DNA of 61,266 nucleotides from Chitinophagaceae bacterium. GTDB lineage: Bacteria; Bacteroidota; Bacteroidia; Chitinophagales; Chitinophagaceae. Under the pieces are notes generated by a model. The model saw only the letters and a program-made list of their open reading frames with translations, was not told the DNA's origin and did not search any database. The DNA is taken from contig JAOAGO010000015.1 of assembly GCA_026415715.1 (NCBI GenBank), forward strand, positions 1-61,266. Direction: 5' to 3'. Shown one piece after another: positions 35,603 to 49,432 of the stretch (position 1 is the first letter of the stretch; each line of letters begins with the position of its first letter). The translations under genes and the position numbers were made by a program.

Positions 35603-35986
35603 GTGTCGGAAGAAAAACTACGGCTGGATAAATATCTCTGGGCTATCCGCCTGTTTAAATCCAGAACGCTGGCTGCCGAAGCCTGTGATGCCGGAAAAAT
35701 TAAATATGCAGGAAGTCCCTGTAAATCTTCCCGTATAGTTAAAATAGGCGATGAATATGAAATCAAAACCGAATCAAGGCGAATTCATATAAAAGTTACC
35801 GGATTGTTGCACAAAAGAGTTTGCTATGCTGAAGCCGTAAAATATTACCTGGATATTACTCCGGAAGATGTGCAACAGCAATACCGCTTTCTGGCCGCCA
35901 GTTTTTATACCGGCAAGCGACTCAGCAAAATCGGGCGGCCCACCAAAAAAGACCGCCGAAAATTAGACGATTTCCTGGGCTACTGA
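35603..35986 (+). CDS. hslR: S4-domain RNA-binding protein (Hsp15/HslR family)
   Basis: 127 residues from GTG at 35603. The S4 domain (LRLDKYLWAIRLFKSRTLAAEACDAGKI) is at the amino end and the basic tail GRPTKKDRRKLDDFL is typical of Hsp15. Hsp15 binds stalled 50S subunits carrying peptidyl-tRNA after heat stress. The stop codon overlaps a CRP/FNR-type site (35982-35997) that faces the downstream Hsp20 gene. Confidence 0.85.
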   Translation: MSEEKLRLDKYLWAIRLFKSRTLAAEACDAGKIKYAGSPCKSSRIVKIGDEYEIKTESRRIHIKVTGLLHKRVCYAEAVKYYLDITPEDVQQQYRFLAASFYTGKRLSKIGRPTKKDRRKLDDFLGY

Positions 35987-36048
35987 CTAAAATCAAATGC
36001 AGCGGAAATAAAAATCATTTATTTCAAAAAAAAGCACAGCTACCTTCG
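35982..36048 (+). promoter_or_regulatory. CRP/FNR-type site and -7 box for hsp20
   Basis: Palindrome ACTGACTAAAATCAAA at 35982-35997 (centre 35989.5) and -7 box TACCTTCG at 36041-36048 (centre 36044.5). The 55-bp offset equals that of the ccoS promoter and puts the site near -62, a class I activator position. Confidence 0.7.
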
Positions 36049-36087
36049 TCTGGTAACATTTATTTTAATCATTGACTCTTAAAACTA

Positions 36088-36540
36088 ATGGTTATGGAAA
36101 CAAAAGCTGTTGACAAACCCAGAACACTCTGGCCCGCTTTGTTTGACAGCGGATGGATTGAAAAATTTTTTAATACACCGCTGGATGAATTTTTTAATTT
36201 TGGAAAAGTCATTCAGGTTCCGGCTGTGAATGTTTGTGAAACCGAAAAAGATTATTTCATTACGGTGGCTGCACCCGGAATGGACAAAAAGGATTTTACA
36301 ATTGAGGCCGATGACGATTTGCTTACCATTAGCGCCCGGAAAGAAGAAAAAGAAGAAGTATCCGGCAGGTATAACCGGCGAGAGTATAATTACAGCAGCT
36401 GGAGCCGAAGTTTTACGTTGCCCGAAAATTGCAACGTGGAGCAAATCAGTGCTGTGTATGCTAACGGTGAGCTTAAAATCACGATCCCGAAAAAGGAGGT
36501 AAAAGCAAGCCCGAAAAGAAAAACCATCACCGTAAGCTAA
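36088..36540 (+). CDS. Small heat shock protein, Hsp20/alpha-crystallin family
   Basis: 150 residues (Met3 at 36094 is an alternative start). Alpha-crystallin domain from about residue 40: VPAVNVCETEKDYFITVAAPGMDKKDF, then SWSRSFTLPENCNVEQISAVYANGELKITIPK, with the A-x-x-x-n-G-v-L core (ANGEL) intact. It is an ATP-independent holdase. The promoter carries a CRP/FNR-type site, so expression may follow oxygen or nitrosative signals rather than heat only. Confidence 0.92.
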   Translation: MVMETKAVDKPRTLWPALFDSGWIEKFFNTPLDEFFNFGKVIQVPAVNVCETEKDYFITVAAPGMDKKDFTIEADDDLLTISARKEEKEEVSGRYNRREYNYSSWSRSFTLPENCNVEQISAVYANGELKITIPKKEVKASPKRKTITVS

Positions 36541-36552
36541 AGCATGTAGTAA

Positions 36553-36584
36553 TCCCCACCCTTTAGCAGAGGGTGGGGAATTTT
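36553..36584 (+). terminator. Terminator between the two hsp20-like genes
   Basis: TCCCCACCCT pairs with AGGGTGGGGA around TTAGCAG-type loop bases and is followed by ATTTTA. Strong stem; the second gene may depend on partial read-through. Confidence 0.75.
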
Positions 36585-36607
36585 AAACTTTGTTAAATAA
36601 AAAAACG

Positions 36608-37024
36608 ATGACAGCCATTTTGCTGGAACAAGAAAAATTTCCTTATTTCATTACGGACAACACAAAACAGAAATTCCCCAAACAAGGGTCTGAAACATGG
36701 CAAATAGTACCGGCCGTACGCGCCGAAGAATCTGCGAATGAATATCTGATATACATTATAGTTCCGGGCATGAAAAGAGAAAATTTCACCATAAAAATCA
36801 AAAAAAACAGGCTGATGGTTTCAGCAAGGAATAAAGAGCTGAAAAATTTTTTTTCCCGTTTTGCCGCTTCGCGAAATGTGATATGGAGAGAGACCTTTAT
36901 ACTCCCCGAAGATGCCGATATGTTGATGACTACTGCCGTATTCAGAAACGGCGCCCTGGAGATTCACATCCCAAAAGGAACAAATTGCGACTTTAGAGCA
37001 CCGCTGAAAATTTTTGTTTATTAA
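36608..37024 (+). CDS. Divergent second Hsp20-like protein
   Basis: 138 residues from ATG at 36608 (a TTG start 18 bp earlier is less likely). An alpha-crystallin domain is recognisable: VPAVRAEESANEYLIYIIVPGMKRENF, IWRETFILPEDADMLMTTAVFRNGALEIHIPKG. It is basic, and the C-terminal I-x-I oligomerisation motif is not evident, ending instead FRAPLKIFVY. It follows the first hsp20 by 67 bp across a terminator. The pair probably arose by duplication and divergence. Confidence 0.82.
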   Translation: MTAILLEQEKFPYFITDNTKQKFPKQGSETWQIVPAVRAEESANEYLIYIIVPGMKRENFTIKIKKNRLMVSARNKELKNFFSRFAASRNVIWRETFILPEDADMLMTTAVFRNGALEIHIPKGTNCDFRAPLKIFVY

Positions 37025-37040
37025 TTCCGATTGAAATGGG

Positions 37041-38096
37041 TTAATATAACAGGTTTTTTAATTTTTCGGCATTAAGGATTTGAATTTTGCCATCCACAAT
37101 TTCAATTAATTTTTCAGCCTTGAAATCGCTGAGCGTTCGAATGAGCGATTCCGTGGCTGTTCCAATATAACGGGCCAGATCTTCCCGGGTAATTTCCAGT
37201 TGTCCTGAATTTTCGCCATGATGAAACTTGGCAAGTATTTCTACCAATGCTTTTGCCACCCGTTTGCGCAACGAACTATAGGCCAGATTTAGCAGGCGCT
37301 CTTCTTTTTCTTTTATATTTTGTGTTATAATGCGGATAAACTTTGCGGCAATACTGATATCGCCGTAAATCATAGCCAGAAAATCATCTTTGGGAATCTG
37401 CAAAATTTCAGACTTCTCCAGTGCTACAGTGGTATCTTCATAATTTCTGTCTTCAATTAATGCGGTATAGCCTATAAAATCACCTTCTGCATAAAGATCG
37501 GTAATATACTCCTTGCCGTCTTCATGCATTTTTATACTTTTTACTTTTCCTTTCATAAGATAATAAAGGTATCTTGGCCTTTTTCCTTCATGATACAGGG
37601 TTTGTTTTTTTTCCAGGATAACCATTTCATATTGTTCAGATAAATGTTGAATCAACCCGGTATTGTTTACATCCCGGATAAACTGGCTTACGCCCTGGGG
37701 AGTGGGGGCGTATTTGTTTTCCAGCACGGCCGATTTTCTGAGGCGTACTTCAATGGCATTCAGCAATTCCACATCCTCAAAAGGTTTTGTTATGTAATCA
37801 TCAGCTCCCATATCCATGCCCTTTCTGAAATCGCTTCTTTCCGTTTTAGCGGTGAGAAATATGAAAGGAACATTCTGCGTAGCCTCATTTTTCCGGATAA
37901 GATGAAGCACACCGTATCCGTCAAGGTCAGGCATCATGATATCACACACTATAACGTCAGGGTTTTCCTTTAAGGCCATTTCCACTCCCTTTTTTCCGTT
38001 TTCGGCTACCAGTGTTTTGTATCCGGCCATTTCCAGAATTTCGGAGGTGTTCTCTCTGATATCCGGATTATCATCAATAACTAAAATTTTTTTCAT
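37041..38096 (-). CDS. Response regulator with REC, cyclic-nucleotide-fold and Crp-type HTH domains
   Basis: 351 residues in three parts. REC domain 1-118 (DDNP acidic pair, phospho-acceptor Asp in VIVCDIMMPDLDGYG, FLTAK Thr and Lys). cNMP-binding fold about 150-260 (YLYYLMKGKVKSIKMHEDGKE, YAEGDFIGYTALI). Crp-type HTH about 285-340 (EITREDLARYIGTATESLIRTL). The recognition helix TESLIR keeps the Glu and Arg that read the GA of TGA in CRP and FNR. There are no FNR-type N-terminal cysteines. It lies 50 bp after the histidine kinase gene, its likely partner, and is the best candidate to bind the five palindromic sites around it. Confidence 0.9.
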   Translation of the reverse strand: MKKILVIDDNPDIRENTSEILEMAGYKTLVAENGKKGVEMALKENPDVIVCDIMMPDLDGYGVLHLIRKNEATQNVPFIFLTAKTERSDFRKGMDMGADDYITKPFEDVELLNAIEVRLRKSAVLENKYAPTPQGVSQFIRDVNNTGLIQHLSEQYEMVILEKKQTLYHEGKRPRYLYYLMKGKVKSIKMHEDGKEYITDLYAEGDFIGYTALIEDRNYEDTTVALEKSEILQIPKDDFLAMIYGDISIAAKFIRIITQNIKEKEERLLNLAYSSLRKRVAKALVEILAKFHHGENSGQLEITREDLARYIGTATESLIRTLSDFKAEKLIEIVDGKIQILNAEKLKNLLY

Positions 38097-38146
38097 AAAA
38101 ACAGCATTAAGAAAAAGAACCTGAATATAAAATTACGGGTCATAGA

Positions 38147-39382
38147 TCAGTCATAACGCAACGGGAAGGTTAGCGTCACCCGGGTTCCCTTGTTAAGTTC
38201 GCTTTGCAAATCTAAAGAACCTTTCAGCAGGTCGGTATATCTTTTCACCAGATGTAACCCTAAGCCGGTTCCCTGAATATTAAGCGCATTACCGGCCCGG
38301 AAAAAACTGGTAAACAAATGCTGCTGATCGGCTTCAGATATCCCGATTCCCCGATCAGTAACACAAAGCCGGAAGTGATCTTCCGTCACTTCACTTTCCA
38401 GGTCAATAGGTTGATCTTCGGGTGAAAATTTGATGGCATTGGAAAGTAAATTAAATAAAATATTTTTCAGGAGTTTTTTGTCTGAAGTAATCTCGGGCGA
38501 ACCGGTATGGCTTCTTCTGATGAGTTGTCCTTTTTTCATTAATCCTTTCATTTCCTCTGTGATATCTTCAATAAATTCGGGCAATGAAAAGTGCTGCGGA
38601 CGCACTTCCACCTTTCCTTCGTCCAGTTTGCCCAGACTCAGAAAGTCTTCCAGTAAATCATTCAGATGTTTTACGGAATTTTTAATTTTTTCAATATGCC
38701 TTAATCTTTTCTCTTCATCGCCGGTGCTGTTATATCTTGCCAGCAATGAGGCGGAAGAAAGTACGGTGCTCAGGGGAGTCCGGAATTCGTGTGATGCCAT
38801 GGATACAAACCGGCTTTTGATTTCATTCAGTTCTTTTTCTTTTTTCAATGCCTGGCTCAATTCTTTTTGTGATTGTTCCAGCCGCTGTAAGGCCTCAGTC
38901 AAAATCATCGTTCTTTCCTGAACTTTTGCTTCCAGTTCGGCATTCAGTTTTTTGATTTCATTGCTTACTTTTTCCAGTTCTTTTTGCTGACGCAACATAT
39001 TTTCTTCAATTTCCTTGCGTTTGCTAATGTCAATGATAAATGCCGTAACAAAAAGCTCTCCGTTGTAATCATAATAACTCAGGCTAACTTCAATGGGAAT
39101 TTCGGTCCCGTCTTTTTTCAATCCGAACAGATCCCTGTTCCGGCCCATGGGGCGGTTGGCCGGATGACGAAAAAATTCTTCTGCCAGCCGGCTATGCGAA
39201 GACCTGAATCGGAAAGGAATCAATGTATCCAAAGGGCGATTTGTCAACTCTCCTTTTTTATAGCCGAATATTTTTTCGGCCGAGGGGTTGCTTAACAATA
39301 TCATTCCGCTGCGATTGATAATAAGAATACCTTCAGTAGTATTTTCAAATAATGAAGTAAGGTGTACATCTTGCGGAATCAT
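38147..39382 (-). CDS. PAS-domain sensor histidine kinase
   Basis: 411 residues. PAS domain about 8-120 (TTEGILIINRSGMILLSNPSAEKIFGYKKGEL), a coiled coil about 125-185 (rich in Glu, Lys, Leu), H box SHEFRTPLSTVLSSASLL, N box NILFNLLSNAIKFSPEDQ, and G boxes DRGIGIS and GTGLGLHLVKRY. No transmembrane segment, so it senses a cytoplasmic signal. No haem-specific residues can be proven; oxygen, NO or redox is suggested only by the neighbouring RIC and cbb3 genes. It lies 69 bp after the RIC gene. Confidence 0.93.
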   Translation of the reverse strand: MIPQDVHLTSLFENTTEGILIINRSGMILLSNPSAEKIFGYKKGELTNRPLDTLIPFRFRSSHSRLAEEFFRHPANRPMGRNRDLFGLKKDGTEIPIEVSLSYYDYNGELFVTAFIIDISKRKEIEENMLRQQKELEKVSNEIKKLNAELEAKVQERTMILTEALQRLEQSQKELSQALKKEKELNEIKSRFVSMASHEFRTPLSTVLSSASLLARYNSTGDEEKRLRHIEKIKNSVKHLNDLLEDFLSLGKLDEGKVEVRPQHFSLPEFIEDITEEMKGLMKKGQLIRRSHTGSPEITSDKKLLKNILFNLLSNAIKFSPEDQPIDLESEVTEDHFRLCVTDRGIGISEADQQHLFTSFFRAGNALNIQGTGLGLHLVKRYTDLLKGSLDLQSELNKGTRVTLTFPLRYD

Positions 39383-39451
39383 TCGGGATACTGAGGTAAT
39401 TGAAGTTTGTTCTATTATGAAGTTGCAAAATAAAAAATTTCCTGATAGATT

Positions 39452-40204
39452 TTATTTATTTGAAGCCAGCAATTCGTCTTCCATCGAAATCACTTTCGGA
39501 AGTAAAATTTTGTTTTCCATAAAAAAGTGTTGATTCAGGTCTTTGTCAAGCTCTGACAGCTTATAAAAAAACACTTTATGACTCAGGCAGGTTTGAGAGG
39601 GAGGGGTATATCGGTTGGTCAGGCCTCTTAAATTATCCAAAATGCCGAATACTTCACGGTGGGTTTGATGAATGATCTGCTTCAGGGGCTTACGTAACGT
39701 GCGGACCAAAAGTCCGGCATAGGAGTCTTTACTGTTGTATGCGTGGCTGATATTTCTCAGATACGGAAATATAATTTCTTCCTCTTCCACGATATGCGAA
39801 ATAAGAATTTTTTCCAGCTTGTGAAATAAATGTTTTAAATCGTTCATATAATGAAAACGACCAGGGTGTTCTTCATCAAATTGTTTCAAATTTTCACTTA
39901 CGACCGGTAAAGATTTTCTGAGATAATTGTGATGTATATTTATAATGTAGTCAGTCAGAAAATCCACACTCCATTCGCTGTAGTCCGGTTTTCGACAAAG
40001 GCTGTGTTCGCTGACAGCTTCTTCCAGTTCGTTTATTAAAGCGGTTTCATCTATACCTCTCATAGAACAAACAATATGCAACGGAAATCGTGCACCGCAG
40101 CAATATTCAATCTTGTATTTACTAAATACATCAGCCGTTCGATAATCATTATTCACAATATCATAAACCGTTTGATTTCTGTCTATTGTGGGGGTTAAGG
40201 ACAT
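39452..40204 (-). CDS. Iron-sulfur cluster repair di-iron protein (RIC/ScdA/YtfE family)
   Basis: About 250 residues (start MSLTPTIDRNQTV at 40204; an ATG two codons earlier at 40210 is possible). N-terminal ScdA_N domain with the double-cysteine motif IEYCCGARFPL; C-terminal hemerythrin-like domain with metal ligands in IINIHHNYL, LISHIVEEEEIIFPYL, IIHQTHREV and LNQHFFMENKILLP. RIC proteins repair iron-sulfur clusters damaged by NO or oxidative stress. It is first in a likely RIC-kinase-regulator operon preceded by a CRP/FNR-type site. Confidence 0.9.
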   Translation of the reverse strand: MSLTPTIDRNQTVYDIVNNDYRTADVFSKYKIEYCCGARFPLHIVCSMRGIDETALINELEEAVSEHSLCRKPDYSEWSVDFLTDYIINIHHNYLRKSLPVVSENLKQFDEEHPGRFHYMNDLKHLFHKLEKILISHIVEEEEIIFPYLRNISHAYNSKDSYAGLLVRTLRKPLKQIIHQTHREVFGILDNLRGLTNRYTPPSQTCLSHKVFFYKLSELDKDLNQHFFMENKILLPKVISMEDELLASNK

Positions 40205-40235
40205 AATCATTATGCTTTACTCTGTTTTCAAAGGG

Positions 40236-40280
40236 CCAAGGTAAAATCTTTCTTTTCCCTAAAAACTGATTTTTATCAGT
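40236..40280 (-). promoter_or_regulatory. CRP/FNR-type site and -7 box for the RIC operon
   Basis: Perfect palindrome ACTGATTTTTATCAGT (40265-40280, centre 40272.5). On the minus strand a -7-like box TACCTTGG lies at 40236-40243 (centre 40239.5). The 33-bp offset corresponds to a site near -41, a class II activator position, identical to the small RNA promoter at 49302. Confidence 0.7.
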
Positions 40281-40388
40281 TGGTTGAGTTCTTTTGGACG
40301 GTTCTCTTTCTTTTATTTCTGCCATCTTGTGAGCTAACGGGAGATAATATTATTTAAACTGTTTATCAGCAAGAAAAGTACCCGGGAA

Positions 40389-40456
40389 TGTGATTTTTAT
40401 CAATTCTCTGAATGAAATAAATCATGTCGGTTGCTACAGGATAAACAATATGTTTG
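40389..40456 (+). promoter_or_regulatory. CRP/FNR-type site and -7 box for ccoI
   Basis: TGTGATTTTTATCAAT (40389-40404, centre 40396.5) and the perfect -7 box TATGTTTG (40449-40456, centre 40452.5). Offset 56 bp, class I-like. The predicted transcript starts about 17 nt before the ccoI ATG. Confidence 0.72.
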
Positions 40457-40476
40457 TCTTTCATAATAAATAATTG

Positions 40477-42873
40477 ATGTCCGTTAAGGAAAATGCAGAT
40501 ATAAAACTCACCTGTTATCACTGCGGAGAACATTGTGCTGATGACAGAATTCAACACGGCAATAAAATTTTCTGTTGTCAGGGATGTAAGATGGTGTATC
40601 AGATACTGGAACAAAGTGATTTGTGCGAATATTATGATTTGAATAAAAACCCCGGTATAAACCGGCGCTTTACGGTGCGGGAAGATAAGTTTGCTTTTCT
40701 GGATGATGAAAAGATTATTGAAAAACTCATTCAGTTTCGAAACGATGAACAAACCCATGTGATGTTTTATTTGCCGCAGATGCATTGCAGCTCCTGCCTG
40801 TACCTTTTGGAAAATCTTCACAAAATTCATGAAGGGGTTATTTCCACTCAGGTAAATTTTCCCCGCAAGGAAATTGAAATTGTATTTCAAACCGGAAAAA
40901 CAACGCTTCGCAAAGTGGCCGAAACCCTGACAGGCCTGGGTTATGAGCCTTACATCAGCCTGAATGATTTGAATCCCAAACGGCCGTCCGTTACCCGAAA
41001 GCAAATATATCAGTTGGGTATAGCCGGTTTTTGTTTCGGTAATATCATGTTGTTGAGTTTTCCGGAATATCTTGGTATTGATGCTTCGGAAGAAACATTG
41101 TTGCGGGTTTTCCGATGGCTGAGCCTGGCGCTTTCGCTTCCTGTTGTTTTTTATTCGGCCATGCCGTATTACGAATCGGCTTTTAAAAGTATTCAAAAAA
41201 AATATATAAATATTGACGCCCCCATTGTACTCGCCATTGCACTTACCTTTATTCGAAGCGTGTATGAAGTGATAAGCGGCACAGGAAGCGGTTATTTTGA
41301 TTCGCTGACGGGCATTGTTTTTTTTCTTTTAATCGGCAGGATATTGCAGGATAAAACATATCGTAGCCTTTCGTTTGACAGAGATTATACTTCTTACTTT
41401 CCGATTGCGGTTACCGTTTTAAAAGAAAATAAACCGGTAGCCGTGTCCCTTCCCGACATTAAACCGGGCGACACATTGCTGATTCATAATGAAGAGCTGA
41501 TACCCGCAGACGGTATCTTATCCAAAGGAAAAGGATATATTGATTACAGCTTTGTAACCGGAGAATCACAGCCGGTTTTCAAAGAAGTGGGCGAAATGAT
41601 TTATGCGGGCGGAAAGCAAAAAGGAGGTAATATTGAAATCCTCGTTATCAAAGAAGTATCACAGAGCTATCTCACCCGCCTGTGGAACAGAGAAGAAATG
41701 AAAAACGAAAAACTGGACTTCCGCCGCTCCCGGGCAGAATTTCTGAATCGGTATTTTTCATCCATCGTTTTTGGCATAGCTGCTTTAACCGCTGCATACT
41801 GGGGCTGGCATGATGCCTCAAAAATCTGGCCTGCGATAACGGCCATATTCATTGTAGCCTGTCCCTGCGCACTGGCATTGGCTCATACATTTACCAACGG
41901 AAATGTGTTGCGAATTCTGAGCAGAAACCGTTTATATCTCAGAAATGCGCAGGTTCTGGAAGAAATATCCAAAATCACACACATTGTGTTTGATAAAACA
42001 GGCACATTAACTTCAACAGAAAATTATGATGTAGAATATTCGGGAAAATCCTTGTCAGACAAACAACTGGCCATGATCGTTTCACTGGCCGGCCAATCCG
42101 CACATCCGCTGAGTAAAGCCATAGCGGGAAAAATAAAAATCGGCAAAGCATTATCTGTACAGAGATTTCAGGAAATTCCAGGTAAGGGAATTCAGGGTAT
42201 GGTTGAGGGGGTGGAATTAAAAATGGGAAATGCAGCTTTTGTTAAGGCGCCGCAGATCCGCTATCCGGGAAGCGGAGTGCATGTGTGTATAGGAACGGAA
42301 TACAAGGGTTATTTCAGGGTGCGAAACCATTATCGGGATCGTCTTCCGGCTGTGATTCAAAACCTGAAAAAACAATTCCGGCTTTCTGTGGTATCCGGAG
42401 ATAATGAAAATGAAAAAGAAACATTACAGAAAATATTCGGAGAGGATACTCCTCTGTTGTTTCATCAAAAACCGGAAGATAAGCTGAATTACATTCATGC
42501 TTTGCGTCAGAAAGGTGAACATGTAATGATGCTGGGGGACGGGTTAAATGATGCGGGAGCACTCAAAGCCAGCCATGTTGGTATAGCTGTTACCGAAAAC
42601 AGCGGATATTTTACTCCGGCCAGTGATGCCATTCTTTTAGCCGATCGCATTCCTTTATTGCCCCGTTTTATTTGTATGGCACAGTGGAACAAAAAAGTGT
42701 TGTTTGCTGCATTTGCCTATTCTGTCATTTATAATGTGATTGGACTCACATTTGCGGTACAGGCTGCGCTTTCTCCCATGATAGCAGCCATATTAATGCC
42801 CTCCAGTTCCATCGGAATTGTATTGATTACTTATGGTGTGACCAACTTGCTGGCAAGGCGTTTAGAACTTTAA
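40477..42873 (+). CDS. ccoI: Copper-type P1B ATPase of the cbb3 cluster (CcoI/FixI)
   Basis: 798 residues from ATG at 40477. An N-terminal cysteine-rich metal-binding domain (CYHCGEHC, FCCQGCKMVYQIL) and an HMA domain with CSSC (MHCSSCLYLLENLH) precede the P-type ATPase core. Core motifs: TGES, the ion-channel motif CPCALALAHTF, the phosphorylation motif DKTGTLT, SAHPLS (HP motif) and GDGLNDAGAL. It moves copper for assembly of the CuB centre of cbb3 oxidase. It heads the cco cluster but is separated from ccoS by 105 bp and a second regulatory site. Confidence 0.94.
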   Translation: MSVKENADIKLTCYHCGEHCADDRIQHGNKIFCCQGCKMVYQILEQSDLCEYYDLNKNPGINRRFTVREDKFAFLDDEKIIEKLIQFRNDEQTHVMFYLPQMHCSSCLYLLENLHKIHEGVISTQVNFPRKEIEIVFQTGKTTLRKVAETLTGLGYEPYISLNDLNPKRPSVTRKQIYQLGIAGFCFGNIMLLSFPEYLGIDASEETLLRVFRWLSLALSLPVVFYSAMPYYESAFKSIQKKYINIDAPIVLAIALTFIRSVYEVISGTGSGYFDSLTGIVFFLLIGRILQDKTYRSLSFDRDYTSYFPIAVTVLKENKPVAVSLPDIKPGDTLLIHNEELIPADGILSKGKGYIDYSFVTGESQPVFKEVGEMIYAGGKQKGGNIEILVIKEVSQSYLTRLWNREEMKNEKLDFRRSRAEFLNRYFSSIVFGIAALTAAYWGWHDASKIWPAITAIFIVACPCALALAHTFTNGNVLRILSRNRLYLRNAQVLEEISKITHIVFDKTGTLTSTENYDVEYSGKSLSDKQLAMIVSLAGQSAHPLSKAIAGKIKIGKALSVQRFQEIPGKGIQGMVEGVELKMGNAAFVKAPQIRYPGSGVHVCIGTEYKGYFRVRNHYRDRLPAVIQNLKKQFRLSVVSGDNENEKETLQKIFGEDTPLLFHQKPEDKLNYIHALRQKGEHVMMLGDGLNDAGALKASHVGIAVTENSGYFTPASDAILLADRIPLLPRFICMAQWNKKVLFAAFAYSVIYNVIGLTFAVQAALSPMIAAILMPSSSIGIVLITYGVTNLLARRLEL

Positions 42874-42892
42874 AACTGCTTTTACAATACCT

Positions 42893-42959
42893 ATTGACAA
42901 AAATCATAAGCGTTGTTGAGTTGTATTATCTGCTGCCGGATGGGTCTTGAATACTTTTA
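42893..42959 (+). promoter_or_regulatory. CRP/FNR-type site and -7 box for ccoS-ccoNO
   Basis: ATTGACAAAAATCATA (42893-42908, centre 42900.5) and -7-like box TACTTTTA (42952-42959, centre 42955.5), offset 55 bp. The predicted start is about 16 nt before the ccoS ATG. Confidence 0.7.
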
Positions 42960-42978
42960 CAACCGTTAAAATCATGAG

Positions 42979-43176
42979 ATGAGTGTCATTATCATTTTGC
43001 TGGCCATCAGTATTTCTATTGCACTGATTTTCCTGGGCGCTTTTCTGTGGAGCGTAAGAACAGGCCAGCTGGATGATGACATTTCTCCCGCATCCAGAAT
43101 ACTGTTTGACGATAAGCCCAAAAACCTTACCGGCAATTCATCGAAACTTCCAAAAACCAAAGGATATGCAAGTTGA
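42979..43176 (+). CDS. ccoS: cbb3 oxidase assembly protein CcoS
   Basis: 65 residues: one membrane helix (VIIILLAISISIALIFLGAFLW) followed by SVRTGQLDDDISPASRILFDD, the conserved CcoS pattern. It is required to insert haem and copper into CcoN. The end overlaps the ccoNO start by 11 bp. Confidence 0.92.
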   Translation: MSVIIILLAISISIALIFLGAFLWSVRTGQLDDDISPASRILFDDKPKNLTGNSSKLPKTKGYAS

Positions 43177-45307
43177 AAAGTTTTATTATGACAATAAGAT
43201 TGTAAAAGCCTTCGGCATAGCAACCGTTGTATTTGGCATAGTTGGCATGCTGGCGGGCCTTTGGTCTGCCATTCAGATTTATTTTCCGGCAGCCAGCCTT
43301 AATCTTCCGGCTACCACCTTTGGGCGGCTAAGGCCTCTGCATACCAATGCAATAATTTTTGCCTTTGTGGGTAATGCCACTTTTGCCGGCGTGTACTATT
43401 CATTACAACGCCTGTGTAAAACCCGGATGTGGAGCGATACTTTGAGTTGGATTAACTTCTGGGGGTGGCAGGCCATCATTGTGGCAGCAGCCATCACTTT
43501 GCCTATGGGAAAAACGACAGGAAAAGAATATGCCGAACTGGAATGGCCTATTGATATTGCCATTGCTGTTGTGTGGGTAGTATTCGGAATTAACATGTTT
43601 GGCACCCTGCTGAACAGAAGAGTAAAACACATTTATGTAGCCATCTGGTTTTACATCGCCACTTGGGTAACGGTGGCTATGCTTCACATTGTCAACTCCA
43701 TCGAGCTTCCTGTTTCGGCATTGAAAAGCTATAGCTGGTATGCCGGCGTGCAGGATGCTCTTGTTCAGTGGTGGTACGGACATAATGCCGTAGCTTTTTT
43801 CCTAACCACACCCGTACTGGGTCTTATGTATTACTTTCTTCCGAAAGCCGCTAACCGGCCAGTGTACTCCTACCGCCTCTCCATCATACATTTCTGGGCA
43901 TTGATATTTATCTATATCTGGGCAGGCCCTCACCACTTGTTATATACTGCATTGCCCGACTGGGCTCAGTCGCTGGGAACCGTGTTTTCCGTAATGCTGA
44001 TAGCCCCCAGCTGGGGCGGAATGCTTAACGGACTCTTCACCTTGCGAGGTGCATGGGATAAAGTGAGAGAAGACCCCGTGTTGAAGTTCATGGTCGTTTC
44101 CGTCACCTGTTACGGTATGGCCACCTTTGAAGGGCCGATGCTGAGCCTTAAAAACGTAAATGCCATATCGCATTTCAGCGATTGGACTATAGGCCATGCA
44201 CATATAGGCGGAATGGGGTGGAACGGTTTTCTGGCGTTTGCTATTTTATATTATTTGGTGCCCAAACTCTGGGGTACAAACTTATACTCAAAAAAACTGG
44301 CCACACATCATTTTTGGATCGGAACCATAGGTATTGTATTGTACGCTATTCCTATGTACTGGGCAGGTTTTGAGCAAAGCATTATGTGGAAACAGTTTAC
44401 GCCGGAAGGACAACTGAAATTTGATTTCATGCAAACCGTAACCAATATTAAACCCATGTATTGGGCACGAAGCATTGGCGGAGGCCTTTATCTGATCGGT
44501 GTATTAATCATGGTGTATAATTTATGGAAAACCATTGCTCAGGGAAAATTCATTGCCAACGAAGAAGCCGAAGCGCCCCCGCTTGTAAAAGAACCCGGCG
44601 CCAAAAAAGTATACTGGCATCGTATTCTGGAACAAAAGCCCATGACGATGCTGGTGGTCAGTCTCATTTTGGTTTCCATTGGCGGACTGGTTCAAATTAT
44701 TCCTACTTTTCTGGTTAAATCCAACATTCCTACCATTGCCAGCGTAAAACCTTATACACCTCTTGAGCTGCAGGGCAGAGATATTTACATCAGAGAAGGT
44801 TGTCATGTTTGCCATTCACAAATGATCCGTCCGTTCCGCGATGAAGTGGCGCGGTACGGTGAGTACTCAAAAGCCGGAGAGTTTGTGTATGATCACCCGT
44901 TTCAGTGGGGCAGCAAAAGAACCGGGCCCGACCTGGCACGGGAAGGCGCTGATAAAAACCGAAGACCGAATTCATGGCATTATAATCACATGTACGACCC
45001 CACCTCTACATCTCCGGGTTCGCTGATGCCCAGATATCCCTGGCTCCTGAAAAACACGTTAGATACTTCAACAACAGCCAAAAAAATAAGAGCCATGCAA
45101 ACGTTGGGTGTCCCCTACCCGAAAGGATACGACAAAATAGCGAATCAGGAATTAATGAATCAAGCCCGTGAAATTGCAGCTGATTTGAAAAAAGATAAAA
45201 TTGAAACAGCGCCTGATAAAGAAATCATTGCTTTGATAGCCTACCTGCAAAGACTGGGAAGAGATATTCAGGTCGAAACGAAAAATATTGCCGAAATAAA
45301 AAAATAA
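43166..45307 (+). CDS. ccoNO: cbb3-type cytochrome c oxidase, fused subunits I and II
   Basis: 713 residues from ATG at 43166 (MQVEKFYYDNKIVKAFGIA); an upstream frame extension lies inside ccoS. The first about 480 residues are CcoN, a haem-copper oxidase with LHTNAIIFAFVGNATFAG, WYGHNAVAFFLTTPVLG (CuB/haem ligands) and IGHAHIGGMGWNG. The last about 200 residues are CcoO with one membrane helix and the haem motif CHVCH in REGCHVCHSQMIRPFRDE. The enzyme reduces oxygen at low tension and pumps protons. The CcoN-CcoO fusion is typical of Bacteroidota. Confidence 0.96.
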   Translation: MQVEKFYYDNKIVKAFGIATVVFGIVGMLAGLWSAIQIYFPAASLNLPATTFGRLRPLHTNAIIFAFVGNATFAGVYYSLQRLCKTRMWSDTLSWINFWGWQAIIVAAAITLPMGKTTGKEYAELEWPIDIAIAVVWVVFGINMFGTLLNRRVKHIYVAIWFYIATWVTVAMLHIVNSIELPVSALKSYSWYAGVQDALVQWWYGHNAVAFFLTTPVLGLMYYFLPKAANRPVYSYRLSIIHFWALIFIYIWAGPHHLLYTALPDWAQSLGTVFSVMLIAPSWGGMLNGLFTLRGAWDKVREDPVLKFMVVSVTCYGMATFEGPMLSLKNVNAISHFSDWTIGHAHIGGMGWNGFLAFAILYYLVPKLWGTNLYSKKLATHHFWIGTIGIVLYAIPMYWAGFEQSIMWKQFTPEGQLKFDFMQTVTNIKPMYWARSIGGGLYLIGVLIMVYNLWKTIAQGKFIANEEAEAPPLVKEPGAKKVYWHRILEQKPMTMLVVSLILVSIGGLVQIIPTFLVKSNIPTIASVKPYTPLELQGRDIYIREGCHVCHSQMIRPFRDEVARYGEYSKAGEFVYDHPFQWGSKRTGPDLAREGADKNRRPNSWHYNHMYDPTSTSPGSLMPRYPWLLKNTLDTSTTAKKIRAMQTLGVPYPKGYDKIANQELMNQAREIAADLKKDKIETAPDKEIIALIAYLQRLGRDIQVETKNIAEIKK

Positions 45308-45313
45308 CGAACT

Positions 45314-45475
45314 ATGAAATTCATTCATTATCTGGAAAAAGTAAGCGGAGTGGATATTATGGGATTAACATCGCTGATGGTGTTTTTCCTGTTTTTTACT
45401 GCCGTTGCTGTTTGGCTGTTTCGTTCCCGAAAAGAAGATTTTGCGGATATAAGCCGTATTCCTTTAGATAATTAA
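45314..45475 (+). CDS. ccoQ: cbb3 oxidase small subunit CcoQ
   Basis: 53 residues, too short for many gene finders. Starts MKFIHYLEKVSGVDIMGL, has one helix (LMVFFLFFTAVAVWLF) and then RSRKEDFADISRIPLDN, matching the CcoQ/FixQ layout. It starts 6 bp after ccoNO and ends 12 bp before ccoP. It stabilises the oxidase complex. Confidence 0.88.
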   Translation: MKFIHYLEKVSGVDIMGLTSLMVFFLFFTAVAVWLFRSRKEDFADISRIPLDN

Positions 45476-45487
45476 AAAACATGTGCC

Positions 45488-46657
45488 ATGAACAAACGAA
45501 TGTTTCTGAAATACAGCTCGCTTATCCTCTGTTCCGTGTTTTTGTTTTATCCGCTAAATGCACTCGCCATGAATACATTGTCACTTTTCAACAACTCCAT
45601 TGCCTTGCTGATGATAGGAATGATGATTGTGTTGCTGATAATCATCGGCATCATGGCCAATGTATTAATCGGAGCGGCAAATCTGAAAATGAAACAACGG
45701 AAATTACAGAATAATAAGAAGATGATGCAGACCGTTTCGATGTTTGTGTTCACGATGTTGACTTCTTCTTTGTGGGCTCAGGATGGCGGCTCGGTGGCAC
45801 AGGATAGCTCCACCGCCAGAACCATTACCGGCATGCAGCCTTTTACCTTTTATCTGATGGTGGCCATCATAATGGCCGAACTGGCAATCATTATTGCCCT
45901 GTTGATTAATATTAAATTTCTGCTCAGCCGCGAAGTAAAAAAGCTCAGCGAAGCCGAAGCCGTGAGCACGGAGGGCTTATTGGCTGTCGAAAAAATCAAA
46001 GCCGAACGGTTAAGCTGGTGGGATCGGTTTAACAAGTTTGTTCCCTTATCCCGTGAAGCTGAGCTGGATCTGGGTCACGAGTATGATGGTATCCGGGAAC
46101 TGAACAACAAACTCCCTCCCTGGTGGTTGTATGGATTTTATGTAACCATACTGTTTTCTGTCATATATATGTGGCGGTATCATGTATCCCACTCGGGTCC
46201 CTCCAGCGCCGAAGAATATGAAATAGCCGTTGCCAAAGCAGAGAAAAAAATTCAGGAATATCTGAAAAAGAAAGGCGAATCGGTTGATGAAAATAACGTC
46301 ACTTTACTCACTTCTGCTGAAGACCTGGCTGCCGGAAAAGCCATTTTTACCGATCCTGCAAAATGTGTGGCTTGTCATGGAGCAGATGGCGGTGGAAATG
46401 CCATAGGCCCTAACCTGACGGACGATTACTGGATTTACGGCGGCAGCATAAAAGACATTTTTAAAACCATTAAATACGGTACCAACAAAGGAATGCGGGC
46501 ATGGAAAGATGACTTGTCGCCAAAACAAATAGCTCAGGTATCCAGCTATATCAAATCACTCAGAGGAACCAAACCGGACAATCCCAGAGAGCCTCAGGGT
46601 ACTTTATACATAGACGAAGCACCGCCGGCGGATACTTCAGCACAGTCAAAAAAATAA
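45488..46657 (+). CDS. ccoP: cbb3 oxidase subunit III (CcoP), single-haem type
   Basis: 389 residues. Unlike classic CcoP there is a long N-terminal part with about three hydrophobic segments (to residue 145). Then comes the FixP_N region with its helix (LPPWWLYGFYVTILFSVIYMW) and one cytochrome c domain with CVACHGADG and the axial Met candidate in NKGMRAWKDDLSP. Only one CxxCH is present; proteobacterial CcoP has two. The protein passes electrons to CcoNO in the periplasm. Confidence 0.92.
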   Translation: MNKRMFLKYSSLILCSVFLFYPLNALAMNTLSLFNNSIALLMIGMMIVLLIIIGIMANVLIGAANLKMKQRKLQNNKKMMQTVSMFVFTMLTSSLWAQDGGSVAQDSSTARTITGMQPFTFYLMVAIIMAELAIIIALLINIKFLLSREVKKLSEAEAVSTEGLLAVEKIKAERLSWWDRFNKFVPLSREAELDLGHEYDGIRELNNKLPPWWLYGFYVTILFSVIYMWRYHVSHSGPSSAEEYEIAVAKAEKKIQEYLKKKGESVDENNVTLLTSAEDLAAGKAIFTDPAKCVACHGADGGGNAIGPNLTDDYWIYGGSIKDIFKTIKYGTNKGMRAWKDDLSPKQIAQVSSYIKSLRGTKPDNPREPQGTLYIDEAPPADTSAQSKK

Positions 46658-46669
46658 AAACCAAATAAA

Positions 46670-48115
46670 ATGACAACCACGGAAACAAAACAAAAGAAAG
46701 AGATAAACGAAATGCCGGAGTCGTTCCGCGACAGGATAGCCACGGTGGATGCTAAAGGAAAAAGAAAGTGGATTTATGCCCAAAAACCCGAAGGAAAATT
46801 TTACCGAATCCGCACTATCGTTAGCTGGTTTTTCTTTGCTTTGTTTTTTACGCTTCCGTTTATAAAGGTAAACGGCAGGCCTTTGTTTCTGATCAATATT
46901 CCCGAAGCAAAATTTATCATTTTCGGAAAAATCTTCTGGCCGCAGGATTTCTTCATTTTCGGCTTGATCATGGTCACATTTGTCATTTTTATTGTGCTGT
47001 TCACTTCGGCCTTCGGAAGATTGTTTTGCGGATGGGTTTGTCCGCAAACCATTTTTATGGAAATGCTGTTTCGCAAAATTGAATATGCCATTCTGGGAAG
47101 TGCCGCCCAACAAAAATTATTGGATCAATCGCCATGGACGAAAGAAAAAATCCTGAAAAAAGGACTCAAACATATCGTCTTCTTTGCGGTTTCTTTTGTG
47201 ATTGCCAATTTTTTTCTTTCCTATATCATCGGTATGGACAGATTGCTGGACATGATCCGGCAACCTGTCGGGCAGCATTTCTGGACGTTGGCCGGGCTGC
47301 TTTTGTTTACAACGGTATTTTATTTTGTGTATACTTTCTTCAGAGAACAGGCCTGTACTGTGGTTTGTCCTTATGGAAGGCTGCAAAGTGTGTTGTTTGA
47401 CAGAAATTCCATGATTGTAGCCTATGACTACAAAAGAGGTGAACCTCGTGCCAAATTCAGAAAAGACAAACCAAAAGATGAAAACACAGGCGATTGTATT
47501 GATTGCTTTCAGTGTGTAAAGGTATGCCCCACCGGCATTGATATCCGCAACGGCGTACAAATGGAATGCGTAGCCTGTACCGCCTGCATAGACGCCTGCG
47601 ATAAAATGATGGAAGCCGTTGGCCGCCCCAAAGGATTAATTCGTTATGCTTCAGAAAACGGCATTGCGGAAGGAAAAAAACTGCAATATACCGGACGAAT
47701 GAAATTTTATACCGTGCTGCTTGTGATACTGAGCGGAATTTTAATTACCTTATTGCTCAGCCGAAAGGATGTTGACGGAACAATTATCCGCACCAAAGGG
47801 CTTGTATATCAGGAAAGAGGCGCCGACAGCTTATCCAACCTCTTTAACATTAAAATCATCAATAAAACCTTTGAGCCCATTCCCGTTACCTTAAAGCTGG
47901 AAGGAGATGCGGCCAACGTGGGCCGAATAGAAACCGTGGGTTCCGGCATCATAAATCTGAAAGCCGAAGACCAGGCCGTAGGCTCATTTTTTGTCGTTCT
48001 GCCGAAACATTTTGTGAAAGAAACAAAAATCAGAATCAAAGTAGGCCTGTATCAGGGAAACAAAAAAATTACGGCGCTGCCTACAAACTTTATCGGTCCT
48101 TTTCGCTTTAACTAA
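46670..48115 (+). CDS. ccoG: CcoG (FixG/RdxA) membrane ferredoxin-like protein
   Basis: 481 residues. About five helices, the FCGWVCPQTIF motif near residue 122, CTVVCPYGRLQ, and two 4Fe-4S motifs in the cytoplasmic loop (CIDCFQCVKVCPTGID and CVACTACIDACDKM). A C-terminal periplasmic Ig-like domain follows from residue 390. CcoG has been linked to reduction of copper for oxidase assembly. Confidence 0.94.
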   Translation: MTTTETKQKKEINEMPESFRDRIATVDAKGKRKWIYAQKPEGKFYRIRTIVSWFFFALFFTLPFIKVNGRPLFLINIPEAKFIIFGKIFWPQDFFIFGLIMVTFVIFIVLFTSAFGRLFCGWVCPQTIFMEMLFRKIEYAILGSAAQQKLLDQSPWTKEKILKKGLKHIVFFAVSFVIANFFLSYIIGMDRLLDMIRQPVGQHFWTLAGLLLFTTVFYFVYTFFREQACTVVCPYGRLQSVLFDRNSMIVAYDYKRGEPRAKFRKDKPKDENTGDCIDCFQCVKVCPTGIDIRNGVQMECVACTACIDACDKMMEAVGRPKGLIRYASENGIAEGKKLQYTGRMKFYTVLLVILSGILITLLLSRKDVDGTIIRTKGLVYQERGADSLSNLFNIKIINKTFEPIPVTLKLEGDAANVGRIETVGSGIINLKAEDQAVGSFFVVLPKHFVKETKIRIKVGLYQGNKKITALPTNFIGPFRFN

Positions 48116-48127
48116 ATCGCTGCATGT

Positions 48128-48568
48128 ATGAACTGGGGTCATAAACTGATACTTGCTTTTTCGGCTTTTGCCATCTTCATCCTGTTTATGGTGTATAAAA
48201 TCATGAACACCAATTTTGATATGGTGGAAAATGACTACTACAAACAGGAACTCATGTATCAGAAAAAAATTGAGGCATATCAAAACGCCAATGCACTGAC
48301 GCAAAAAATAAAAGTAACGGTCCGGGATGAAGAAGTTGTCTTACAGTTTCCGCCCGAACTCATCAACAAACCCCTTACCGGCGACGCCTGGTTTTACTGC
48401 GCATATGATAAGACTCAGGATAAAAAATTCAGATTAAATACCGATAAAAACGGAATGCAGCTTTTTGCCATTAACCAGCTCGGTCCGGTCAATTATACCC
48501 TTAAGCTTTCGTGGAATGACGGGGATAAAAATTATTATACCGAAATACCCGTAAATCTTATGAAATGA
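48128..48568 (+). CDS. ccoH: FixH/CcoH family protein
   Basis: 146 residues: an N-terminal helix (WGHKLILAFSAFAIFILFMVY), then VENDYYKQELMYQKKIEAYQNA and a beta-rich periplasmic domain, the FixH layout. It assists late assembly of the cbb3 complex. It overlaps the next gene by 4 bp (ATGA). Confidence 0.9.
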   Translation: MNWGHKLILAFSAFAIFILFMVYKIMNTNFDMVENDYYKQELMYQKKIEAYQNANALTQKIKVTVRDEEVVLQFPPELINKPLTGDAWFYCAYDKTQDKKFRLNTDKNGMQLFAINQLGPVNYTLKLSWNDGDKNYYTEIPVNLMK

Positions 48569-49278
48569 TTTCTGCTGCATTAATAGGAGGTTTGTTGATG
48601 GGACTGGCCGGCAGTCTGCATTGCGCCGGAATGTGCGGGCCGTTGGTTTTCATGTTACCTATCCCGAATCATTCGTTTATACCAAAAGTAACCTTGATTT
48701 TCTTATATCATGGCGGAAGAATTATAATCTATTCCCTGGGCGGACTTTTGGCCGGGCTTTTGGGAAGAAGTTTTCTGAATGCAGAATTTCAGCAAGGCAT
48801 TTCAATAGTAGCCGGTTCGGCAATGATTTTATTTTCCATGTTTTATTTCAAAAAAAACTATCAGCTAAAAGTTCCGGTTTTGAAATATTGGTATCATCGC
48901 ATTCAGGCCCGCATAGTTCATTTGCTTCGCACCCCGCTGAGCGGATTTTCTGCTTTTGCTCTTGGCATGGCTAATGCATTGTTGCCCTGCGGATGGGTTT
49001 ATATGGCGCTTCTTTCATCATTAGCTTTTATCAGGCCTGAGGAAAGCACTTTGTTTATGGCCATGTTTGGCGCAGGTACACTTCCACTGATGCTGATGAT
49101 TTCTCTGGCAGGGGCTCTGATAAAACCCGAATTAAAATTGAATCTGAAAAAAATAGCTCCCGTAGCCATATCTCTTGTGGGAGTGTTGCTGATTTTAAGA
49201 GGGCTCAATCTCGGAATTCCCTTTCTGAGCCCGCATATCCCCGTTGCAGGCGAGGAGGTACAACACTGTACTCCCTGA
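48565..49278 (+). CDS. TauE/SafE (DsbD_2-like) membrane protein of the cco cluster
   Basis: 237 residues, six predicted helices. The first helix carries GLAGSLHCAGMCGPLVFMLP and the fourth NALLPCGWVYMALLSS, pairs of conserved Cys/Pro typical of the DsbD_2/UreH-like group. This family member is routinely the last gene of Bacteroidota cbb3 clusters and probably helps copper or thiol supply for the oxidase. The histidine and cysteine in the HCAGMC segment could bind metal. Confidence 0.88.
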   Translation: MISAALIGGLLMGLAGSLHCAGMCGPLVFMLPIPNHSFIPKVTLIFLYHGGRIIIYSLGGLLAGLLGRSFLNAEFQQGISIVAGSAMILFSMFYFKKNYQLKVPVLKYWYHRIQARIVHLLRTPLSGFSAFALGMANALLPCGWVYMALLSSLAFIRPEESTLFMAMFGAGTLPLMLMISLAGALIKPELKLNLKKIAPVAISLVGVLLILRGLNLGIPFLSPHIPVAGEEVQHCTP

Positions 49279-49301
49279 TTCCGGAATAAATCATCGGAAA
49301 G

Positions 49302-49346
49302 ACTGACTAAAATCAGCAATCCGGAAAAGAACGCAACATACTTTTA
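49302..49346 (+). promoter_or_regulatory. CRP/FNR-type site and -7 box for a candidate small RNA
   Basis: ACTGACTAAAATCAGC (49302-49317, centre 49309.5) and TACTTTTA (49339-49346, centre 49342.5), offset 33 bp. The same spacing is seen at the RIC promoter. The box is identical to the ccoS -7 box. Confidence 0.7.
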
Positions 49347-49349
49347 TCG

Positions 49350-49432
49350 AAGATTCCACAACACATAGTCCAGGTGTTATTGTTGGTTTTTGTTTCTGTG
49401 GTCAACCCCCGGCTCTCCGGGGGTTCTTTTTT
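49350..49432 (+). ncRNA. Candidate CRP/FNR-controlled small RNA
   Basis: From the predicted start near 49350 to the terminator T run at 49432 the transcript would be about 83 nt. It contains no reading frame of note. It can form AACAC/GTGTT (49360-49378 region), a longer-range CCACA/TGTGG pairing, and a strong terminator stem (AACCCCC/GGGGGTT). A separate perfect -7 box for the next gene begins after it, so this is unlikely to be just a leader. FNR-dependent sRNAs such as FnrS are known in enterobacteria; this would be an independent case. Expression is unproven. Confidence 0.55.
49404..49432 (+). terminator. Strong intrinsic terminator of the candidate small RNA
   Basis: AACCCCC (49404-49410) and GGGGGTT (49419-49425) form a 7-bp stem with an 8-nt loop, followed by CTTTTTT. 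Confidence 0.88.

Follow-up and report, generated by a model that had tools for sequence, protein, structure and literature searches.

Are the cbb3 oxidase genes of a Chitinophagaceae bacterium, together with iron-sulfur repair genes, heat-shock genes and a small RNA, placed under a single CRP/FNR-type regulator? Bacteroidota are major members of soil, water and gut communities, and little is known of how they perceive low oxygen and switch on their unusual -33/-7 promoters. The question is raised by contig JAOAGO010000015.1 of assembly GCA_026415715.1, whose positions 1 to 61,266 (forward strand) are called the window below. A first-pass annotation of this DNA had described five CRP/FNR-type palindromes, each at a fixed distance from a -7-like promoter box, as an unreported regulon. 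The observation itself, five sites with phased -7-like boxes, is real and was confirmed. It is quite likely that the window holds a low-oxygen (or nitric oxide) regulon, in which a heme-PAS-type kinase and a receiver-CRP/FNR fusion would activate phased -7 promoters, with an FnrS-like RNA among its parts. The five sites and their boxes are the following.

35984..35995, CRP/FNR-type site of hsp20, TGACTAAAATCA; box TACCTTCG at 36041-36048, spacer 45
40267..40278, site of the RIC-kinase-regulator unit, which is on the minus strand, TGATTTTTATCA / TGATAAAAATCA; box TACCTTGG at 40243-40236, spacer 23
40391..40402, site of ccoI, TGATTTTTATCA; box TATGTTTG at 40449-40456, spacer 46
42895..42906, site of ccoS-ccoNO, TGACAAAAATCA; box TACTTTTA at 42952-42959, spacer 45
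49304..49315, site of the small RNA, TGACTAAAATCA; box TACTTTTA at 49339-49346, spacer 23

All five carry the core TGAY-N4-RTCA with an all-A/T spacer (W4), as had been claimed, and the window contains no other W4 match; the coordinates first given were those of 16-mers beginning two bases before the 12-bp cores listed here. Four of the sites are intergenic, and the hsp20 site opens with the TGA stop codon of an upstream S4-like frame (35603-35986). In the whole genome (2,626,356 bp) the W4 pattern occurs 34 times, against 8 for a reversed-pattern control. At this density 0.79 sites are expected in the window and 0.17 in the shorter stretch that carries them (Poisson probability of five or more, 0.0014 and 1.1×10−6, respectively). 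The other 29 sites of the genome lie mostly inside reading frames, as judged by eye, with about seven or eight outside.

The centre-to-centre distances between site and box were found as first reported (hsp20 55, RIC 33, ccoI 56, ccoS 55, RNA 33). TAnnTTTG is matched perfectly by one of the five boxes and at 5 of the 6 positions by the other four. A comparably phased box accompanies all five W4 sites of the window versus 2 of the 29 elsewhere in the genome (Fisher 7.5×10−5, a value that is optimistic because the window sites had been selected in the first-pass annotation). When a perfect TAnnTTTG was demanded, the genome yielded two matches at the shorter distance (class II) and two at the longer one (class I), and the control none. 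The class I matches are ccoI, the only window site among the four, and C22:12393; those of class II are C8:8299, followed just by a 74-aa frame, and C20:18845. The last (L180) has a perfect TATTTTTG box, class II phased, and stands before a gene outside the window that by eye resembles thioredoxin reductase.

Phasing was then measured in relatives. Seventy-seven genomes, the own one among them, were searched with the REC-cNMP-HTH protein encoded between the sites; 53 had a match (E<=1e-30), which was full-length in 49, and 40 regions around full-length matches, plus the window, made up the sample. Over its 444 strand-counted TGAYN4RTCA sites, TAnnTTTG boxes followed at spacer 23 in 30 cases and at spacer 45 in 27, where 0.16 per distance were expected; spacers 24 and 46 had 3 each. 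There are thus two preferred site-promoter distances, which differ by 22, as in class I and class II activation, and 22 of the 25 tandem site pairs at most 30 bp apart are spaced by exactly 22 bp.

The arrangement is also conserved gene by gene, counting the loci that have enough upstream sequence. A site was present upstream of ccoI in 18 of 19 loci (phased in 16), of ccoS in 6 of 7 (phased in 6), of RIC in 18 of 22 (strictly phased in 1) and of hsp20a in 9 of 11 (strictly phased in 3). The low RIC and hsp20a counts arise because each of these genes has its own departure from the TAnnTTTG box: TAATTTGC or TATTTTGC stands near spacer 23 before many RIC genes of the relatives, and a TAnnTTCG-type box at spacer 45 recurs before several hsp20 genes. 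TAnnTTGY is one promoter class described for Flavobacterium psychrophilum (PMC9723704). The proposal of a CRP/FNR-type regulon with class I- and class II-like spacing was borne out for the cbb3 assembly and structural genes, RIC, hsp20 and a conserved RNA, with the reservation that the RIC and hsp20 boxes are such variants.

Other genes follow phased sites in the same 40 chosen stretches. By names that we assign by eye, and presumptively, they are a lipoprotein gene with a divergent Rrf2-like gene, and thioredoxin, tryptophanase/tyrosine phenol-lyase-like, CoA-transferase-like, malate-dehydrogenase-like, PaaA-like and CRP-type genes. In seven stretches (L079 8186, L081 9148, L082 8243, L083 7956, L084 9453, L086 8130, L089 9416) tandem sites with the 22 bp spacing are followed by a TAnnTTTG box (mostly AAATACTTTTG) and a small lipoprotein gene, and several of them also have a divergent regulator gene that by eye is Rrf2-like. 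In L185 and L202 a tandem pair is phased in both directions.

In the 77 whole genomes the class II pattern gave 342 matches versus 38, and the class I pattern 191 versus 42, the control being the reversed sequence rather than a composition-matched promoter set. The first-pass annotation had proposed a search of the genome and its relatives for TAnnTTTG boxes at 33 or 55 bp, and had considered that equally frequent phasing before unrelated genes would speak against the regulon. Such a search gives the strong peaks at spacers 23 and 45, and phasing is indeed scarce at the other W4 sites of the own genome, but the geometry is enriched generally over the 77 genomes and is not peculiar to this regulon. 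Stated as a rule, with box and site centres 33 or 55 bp apart and tandem sites separated by 22 bp, it can be used to search for CRP/FNR-type targets in this group.

The genes around the first four sites are these.

36088..36540, plus strand, first small heat-shock protein Hsp20 (PF00011, 4.9e-22)
36590..37024, plus strand, second small heat-shock protein Hsp20 (PF00011, 2.2e-11)
37041..38096, minus strand, REC-cNMP-HTH_Crp protein of 351 aa, the proposed regulator (Pfam)
38147..39382, minus strand, PAS histidine kinase with a FixL/DosP-like heme-PAS signature, the proposed sensor (Pfam, alignment)
39452..40210, minus strand, RIC/ScdA-type iron-sulfur repair protein (ScdA_N and Hemerythrin domains)
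40474..42873, plus strand, ccoI-type P-type ATPase (E1-E2_ATPase and related domains), which we take to be ccoI by its position
42979..43176, plus strand, 65-aa product, presumably ccoS by position and homology among relatives
43169..45307, plus strand, ccoNO, fused catalytic and mono-heme subunits of cbb3 oxidase (COX1, FixO)
45488..48568, plus strand, ccoP, ccoG and ccoH (FixP_N, Fer4_18/FixG_C, FixH)

Response_reg, cNMP_binding and HTH_Crp_2 domains are joined in the one 351-aa protein. In the alignment its receiver residue D52 and its recognition residues E316, I319 and R320 are invariant (15/15). A search of this protein for the four cysteines of a [4Fe-4S] cluster found a single one, in the receiver domain (no cysteine but C51 is invariant in the alignment), and it is therefore not an iron-sulfur FNR. 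FNR contacts its site through E209, S212 and R213 (E. coli numbering), and the Ser favours a T before TGA. Compared with the FNR-type structures 9qly/8qto, the recognition helix keeps E and R and has I at the Ser position. The base preceding TGAY, over 62 sites upstream of ccoI, ccoS, hsp20a and RIC orthologues (symmetrised), is C at a frequency of 0.47 and T at 0.13, unlike TTGAT.

The kinase aligns with the heme-PAS structures of FixL and DosP at the heme-ligand His and at the FG-loop Arg. The His is invariant (15/15); the Arg is replaced in L107 and L109. A kinase homologue is present in 35 of the 40 regulator loci, adjacent in 29, and cco genes are found in 22 of the 40 stretches. In the window, RIC, kinase and regulator genes run head to tail on the minus strand, with gaps of 69 and 50 bases, and through the site ahead of RIC the regulator would probably be subject to feedback. 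The receiver-CRP fusion also occurs in Chitinophaga filiformis, Jiulongibacter sediminis, a Flavobacterium and Salinimicrobium nanhaiense, as well as in an uncultured Aquimarina, where it lies near a cbb3 operon. The likeliest regulator of the sites is the adjacent REC-cNMP-HTH protein with its PAS kinase, an attribution that we infer. In genus g1, genome sizes range from 1.5 to 5.5 Mb and many small genomes have no regulator; in some of these small genomes the RNA persists with decayed sites.

The fifth site precedes a predicted RNA, with these parts.

49352..49432, plus strand, small RNA, predicted from the sequence, its start placed about 6 nt after the box
49360-49378, consensus hairpin
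49377-49396, conserved U-rich stretch UUAUUGUUGGUUUUUGUUUC
49404-49425, terminator stem, followed by a T run

By its sequence it is a short autonomous unit, with a CRP/FNR-type site ahead and an intrinsic terminator of its own. The window copy scores 75.0 bits against the covariance model, of which it is one of the 11 source sequences, and its folding z is -3.09. Among these eleven sequences, which are related, both sides change in 4 of the 6 hairpin pairs and in 2 of the 8 terminator pairs, although the hairpin arms are shifted by one column in L090 and L201, which costs pairs. The covariation score was 0.235 versus 0.133 in shuffles, of which 0 of 500 reached the observed value, and sliding the partners lowered it; the count of further pair types in the alignment was not above shuffles (421 of 500 reached it). 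The small RNA had no match above chance in Rfam. The model search of the 77 genomes, run with Infernal's stricter filters, returned 25 matches of at least 61.5 bits in 24 genomes, all of the window's genus, the next best scoring 42 bits; this makes 24 of the 42 genomes of the genus and 0 of the 35 others. The candidate small RNA is read as a conserved, putatively transcribed RNA family absent from Rfam.

Its upstream sites could be parsed in 22 loci, taking in each the best-matching box and, of three adjacent spacers, the one that fitted best, a procedure that favours low mismatch counts. The nearer site was exact in 16 of the 22, and both sites, 22 bp apart, in 11; of the two unparsed loci, L323 has both sites exact and L324 none. 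An exact nearer site was found in 16 of the 17 parsed loci from genomes with a regulator of at least 65% identity versus 0 of the 5 others (Fisher 2.3×10−4; the five possibly form one clade, and there are near-identical loci among the 17), the first count becoming 17 of 19 once the two unparsed loci are read by eye. In L318 (1525) and L324 (about 1525) the RNA lies directly behind a frame that by eye is small and membrane-protein-like.

Complements of the conserved stretch, with one mismatch allowed, were searched in 16 genomes, giving 94 matches (16 of them the RNA copies) versus 24 for the reversed pattern. Twenty of 76 contexts lay at most 24 nt before a plausible start codon, versus 1 of 24 controls (Fisher 0.02); the 76 comprise one RNA copy (L345) and 75 of the 78 non-RNA matches, three near contig ends having been left out, and matches inside genes were counted as misses. 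With a longer pattern the excess was about twofold (54 non-RNA matches versus 26 controls). Bacteroidota use A-rich start regions instead of Shine-Dalgarno sequences, and the enrichment near start codons may partly reflect this general A-richness. The longest complements nevertheless track the local RNA variant, with CGA(T) in G019 and G027, whose RNA has AUCG, and CAATAAC in G021, whose RNA has UUAUUG. No convincing target of the RNA was found in the window's own genome, and a 40-residue piece of one predicted target had no Pfam match. These matches are a lead to targets rather than a demonstration. By analogy, the RNA probably works like an FnrS-type small RNA, repressing mRNAs by pairing near their start codons.

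The circuit that we propose from these elements would run as follows. The PAS histidine kinase, which probably binds heme as FixL does, would phosphorylate the receiver that is fused to the CRP/FNR-type DNA-binding protein. This fusion would bind (a)CTGAY-N4-RTCAG(t) and activate Bacteroidota -7 promoters of the TAnnTTTG type from positions separated by two helical turns: near -41 at the RIC-kinase-regulator unit, hence with a positive feedback, and at the small RNA, and near -62 at hsp20, ccoI and ccoS-ccoNO. Before the small RNA both positions would serve together, in half of the related loci. An RNA of about 80 nt, with its intrinsic terminator and strongly conserved U-rich stretch, would then probably repress mRNAs by pairing near start codons. 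The sites with their phasing and conservation, the covariation of the RNA and the domain and residue signatures are observed; heme binding, phosphotransfer, binding of the sites by this protein, activation, the oxygen signal, and the RNA as a transcript with its targets belong to the proposal. A further-reaching version, which we regard as conceivable but doubtful, is a one-step oxygen circuit new to Bacteroidota, in which a heme-PAS kinase would signal to a fusion acting from -41 and -62. The output most tightly kept within the genus would be a convergent FnrS, placed on tandem class I and class II sites, which would silence mRNAs by covering their A-rich start regions; the possible peptide frame in 14 of 23 RNA copies makes this version slightly less likely.

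Several observations weigh against the circuit so drawn, and they are taken here together with its rivals. The RIC and hsp20 boxes are weak, strict phasing being seen in just 1 of 22 and 3 of 11 loci, and since the genomes are related their counts are not independent. The genome encodes a second CRP-type protein (two CRP-HTH proteins pass the Pfam cut-off, with twelve weaker matches below it), and relatives have 2 to 5 (3 in G024, 2 in G031, 5 in G021). The 28 genomes without a full-length regulator orthologue are still enriched, with 78 class II matches versus 8 and 32 class I matches versus 10. The geometry therefore does not identify the regulator, and the idea that the fixed spacing marks one regulon had to be given up: it looks like a general meeting mode of CRP/FNR-type activators and -7 promoters in this group. 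Presence of the regulator was likewise discarded as a predictor of phased sites, as the separation was poor (1.71 class II matches per Mb with an orthologue of at least 60% versus 1.13 with none, G036, G052, G063 and G073, which have partial matches only, being counted as none). The sites could also be bound by the other CRP/FNR-type protein, a 237-aa frame on contig C14, in which case the REC-cNMP-HTH protein would govern a different regulon. No further CRP-HTH protein of this genome passes the cut-off, the C14 helix SREVISR has the FNR-like E..SR residues, and phased sites do occur in genomes without the REC fusion. This reading is unlikely: an FNR-type Ser would lead one to expect the leading T that is wanting in the sites, and the REC fusion co-occurs with cco genes and is located between hsp20 and the RIC/cco genes, whereas the neighbours of the C14 gene are not cbb3 genes. 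The C14 gene (G000:C14, L017) adjoins what by eye we take to be a TauE-type transporter gene and a beta-lactamase-fold, sulfur-dioxygenase-like gene. The first-pass view that one regulator governs the set is a presumption, given the two CRP-HTH proteins over the cut-off. It is hardly credible that the palindromes and boxes arose by chance in AT-rich intergenic DNA, even with a single perfect box in five and most of the other 29 W4 sites inside reading frames (by eye). Chance had been called unlikely from the start, and it was rejected on the spacer peaks (30 and 27 versus 0.16 expected), the conservation before orthologous genes, the 22-bp tandem pairs and the enrichment over control counts.

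For the RNA, too, some points count on the other side: the lowest-energy fold of the window copy is without the consensus hairpin, 2 of the 24 RNA loci (L318, L324) have no such sites, and G007 and G023, two of the five genomes whose parsed locus goes without a regulator of at least 65% identity, carry the RNA yet show no CRP-HTH protein at E<=1e-4. Rather than a trans-acting RNA, the unit could be a leader or attenuator of the downstream lipoprotein gene or of trmD, a reading that we find improbable. It is suggested by trmD lying downstream in 21 of the 22 parsed loci (the exception is L311), by the terminator at the end of the unit, and by seven loci (L301-L306, L309) in which the following lipoprotein gene has no exact box of its own. 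Against it, a TAnnTTTG box belonging to the next gene itself was found in 14 of 24 loci (L316 and L323 having no next gene parsed), in 13 of them 3-4 nt before the ATG, so that in most loci with trmD directly behind it the RNA appears to be a unit of its own; complements of its conserved stretch are moreover found near start codons elsewhere. A trmD box TATCTTTG appears to stand 3-4 nt before the ATG in L307, L310, L312, L314, L317-L321 and L324, which suggests that trmD transcription in these ten loci is leaderless or nearly so. A coding role of the conserved stretch, for a small peptide (..SYxWFLF..) by itself or within a dual-function RNA, is less probable still. In 14 of the 23 copies scanned, L323 being left out, a frame in the WFLF register (window 49377-49432) does start with ATG and run through the core, among them L301-L308, L311, L313 and L318-L321. 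The register has no ATG frame in the other 9, the window included, L310 and L312 offer a different frame, e.g. MAALRELSLVFVS, and the core, which extends into the terminator stem, hardly varies at any base, even at wobble positions.

We conclude that the regulon in the window is real. In function it is of a classical type; the architecture of its regulator is unusual, and its RNA belongs to a family that Rfam does not contain. As to its being unreported, literature searches gave no recognised description of the regulator architecture or of the RNA family, but FNR/FixK-type control of cbb3 oxidase is classical. The receiver-CRP fusion is a testable candidate oxygen sensor, and the RNA, if the proposal is true, would be a CRP/FNR-controlled regulatory RNA family absent from Rfam 15.

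The system resembles several known ones. FNR/ANR regulons have the same TGAY-N4-RTCA palindrome, class I/II-like spacing, and cbb3 and iron-sulfur repair genes among their members; here the regulator has one cysteine and an Ile at the recognition-helix Ser position, and the sites show no preference for T before TGA. FnrS of enterobacteria is a small RNA that represses mRNAs by pairing near start codons. The present RNA is like it in being a short unit with its own terminator and a CRP/FNR-type site ahead, and possibly in pairing near start codons; it differs by its tandem sites and by its occurrence in one genus only among the 77 genomes, and no homology to FnrS or another Rfam family was found. 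HcpR is a heme-binding, single-domain NO regulator of hcp of the CRP type. In Bacteroides thetaiotaomicron, PMC13370916 places the SnoA RNA locus next to hcpR, reports that SnoA levels do not depend on HcpR, and presents promoters as the place where SnoA acts; SnoA is likewise a Bacteroidota regulatory RNA beside a CRP-family regulator, in a redox/nitrosative context. F. psychrophilum has, according to PMC9723704, an Rfp18 small RNA acting on metalloprotease mRNAs, a cbb3 oxidase induced by oxygen limitation, and TAnnTTTG and TAnnTTGY promoter classes, the same -7 box types as here; the word 'crp' is absent from the main text of that paper. The closest parallel is the FixL-FixJ-FixK cascade of rhizobia, in which a separate FixJ receiver protein activates a separate fixK gene. 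Both systems have a heme-PAS-type kinase signature (proximal His and FG-loop Arg, present here at the sequence level), a receiver, a CRP/FNR-type activator without the iron-sulfur Cys set and a cbb3 target. A separate FixJ and fixK arrangement was not found here, as the receiver and the DNA-binding module are fused in one protein, so that one transcriptional step is missing. The present system further belongs to another phylum, uses -7 promoters, and includes RIC, hsp20 and an RNA in its set.

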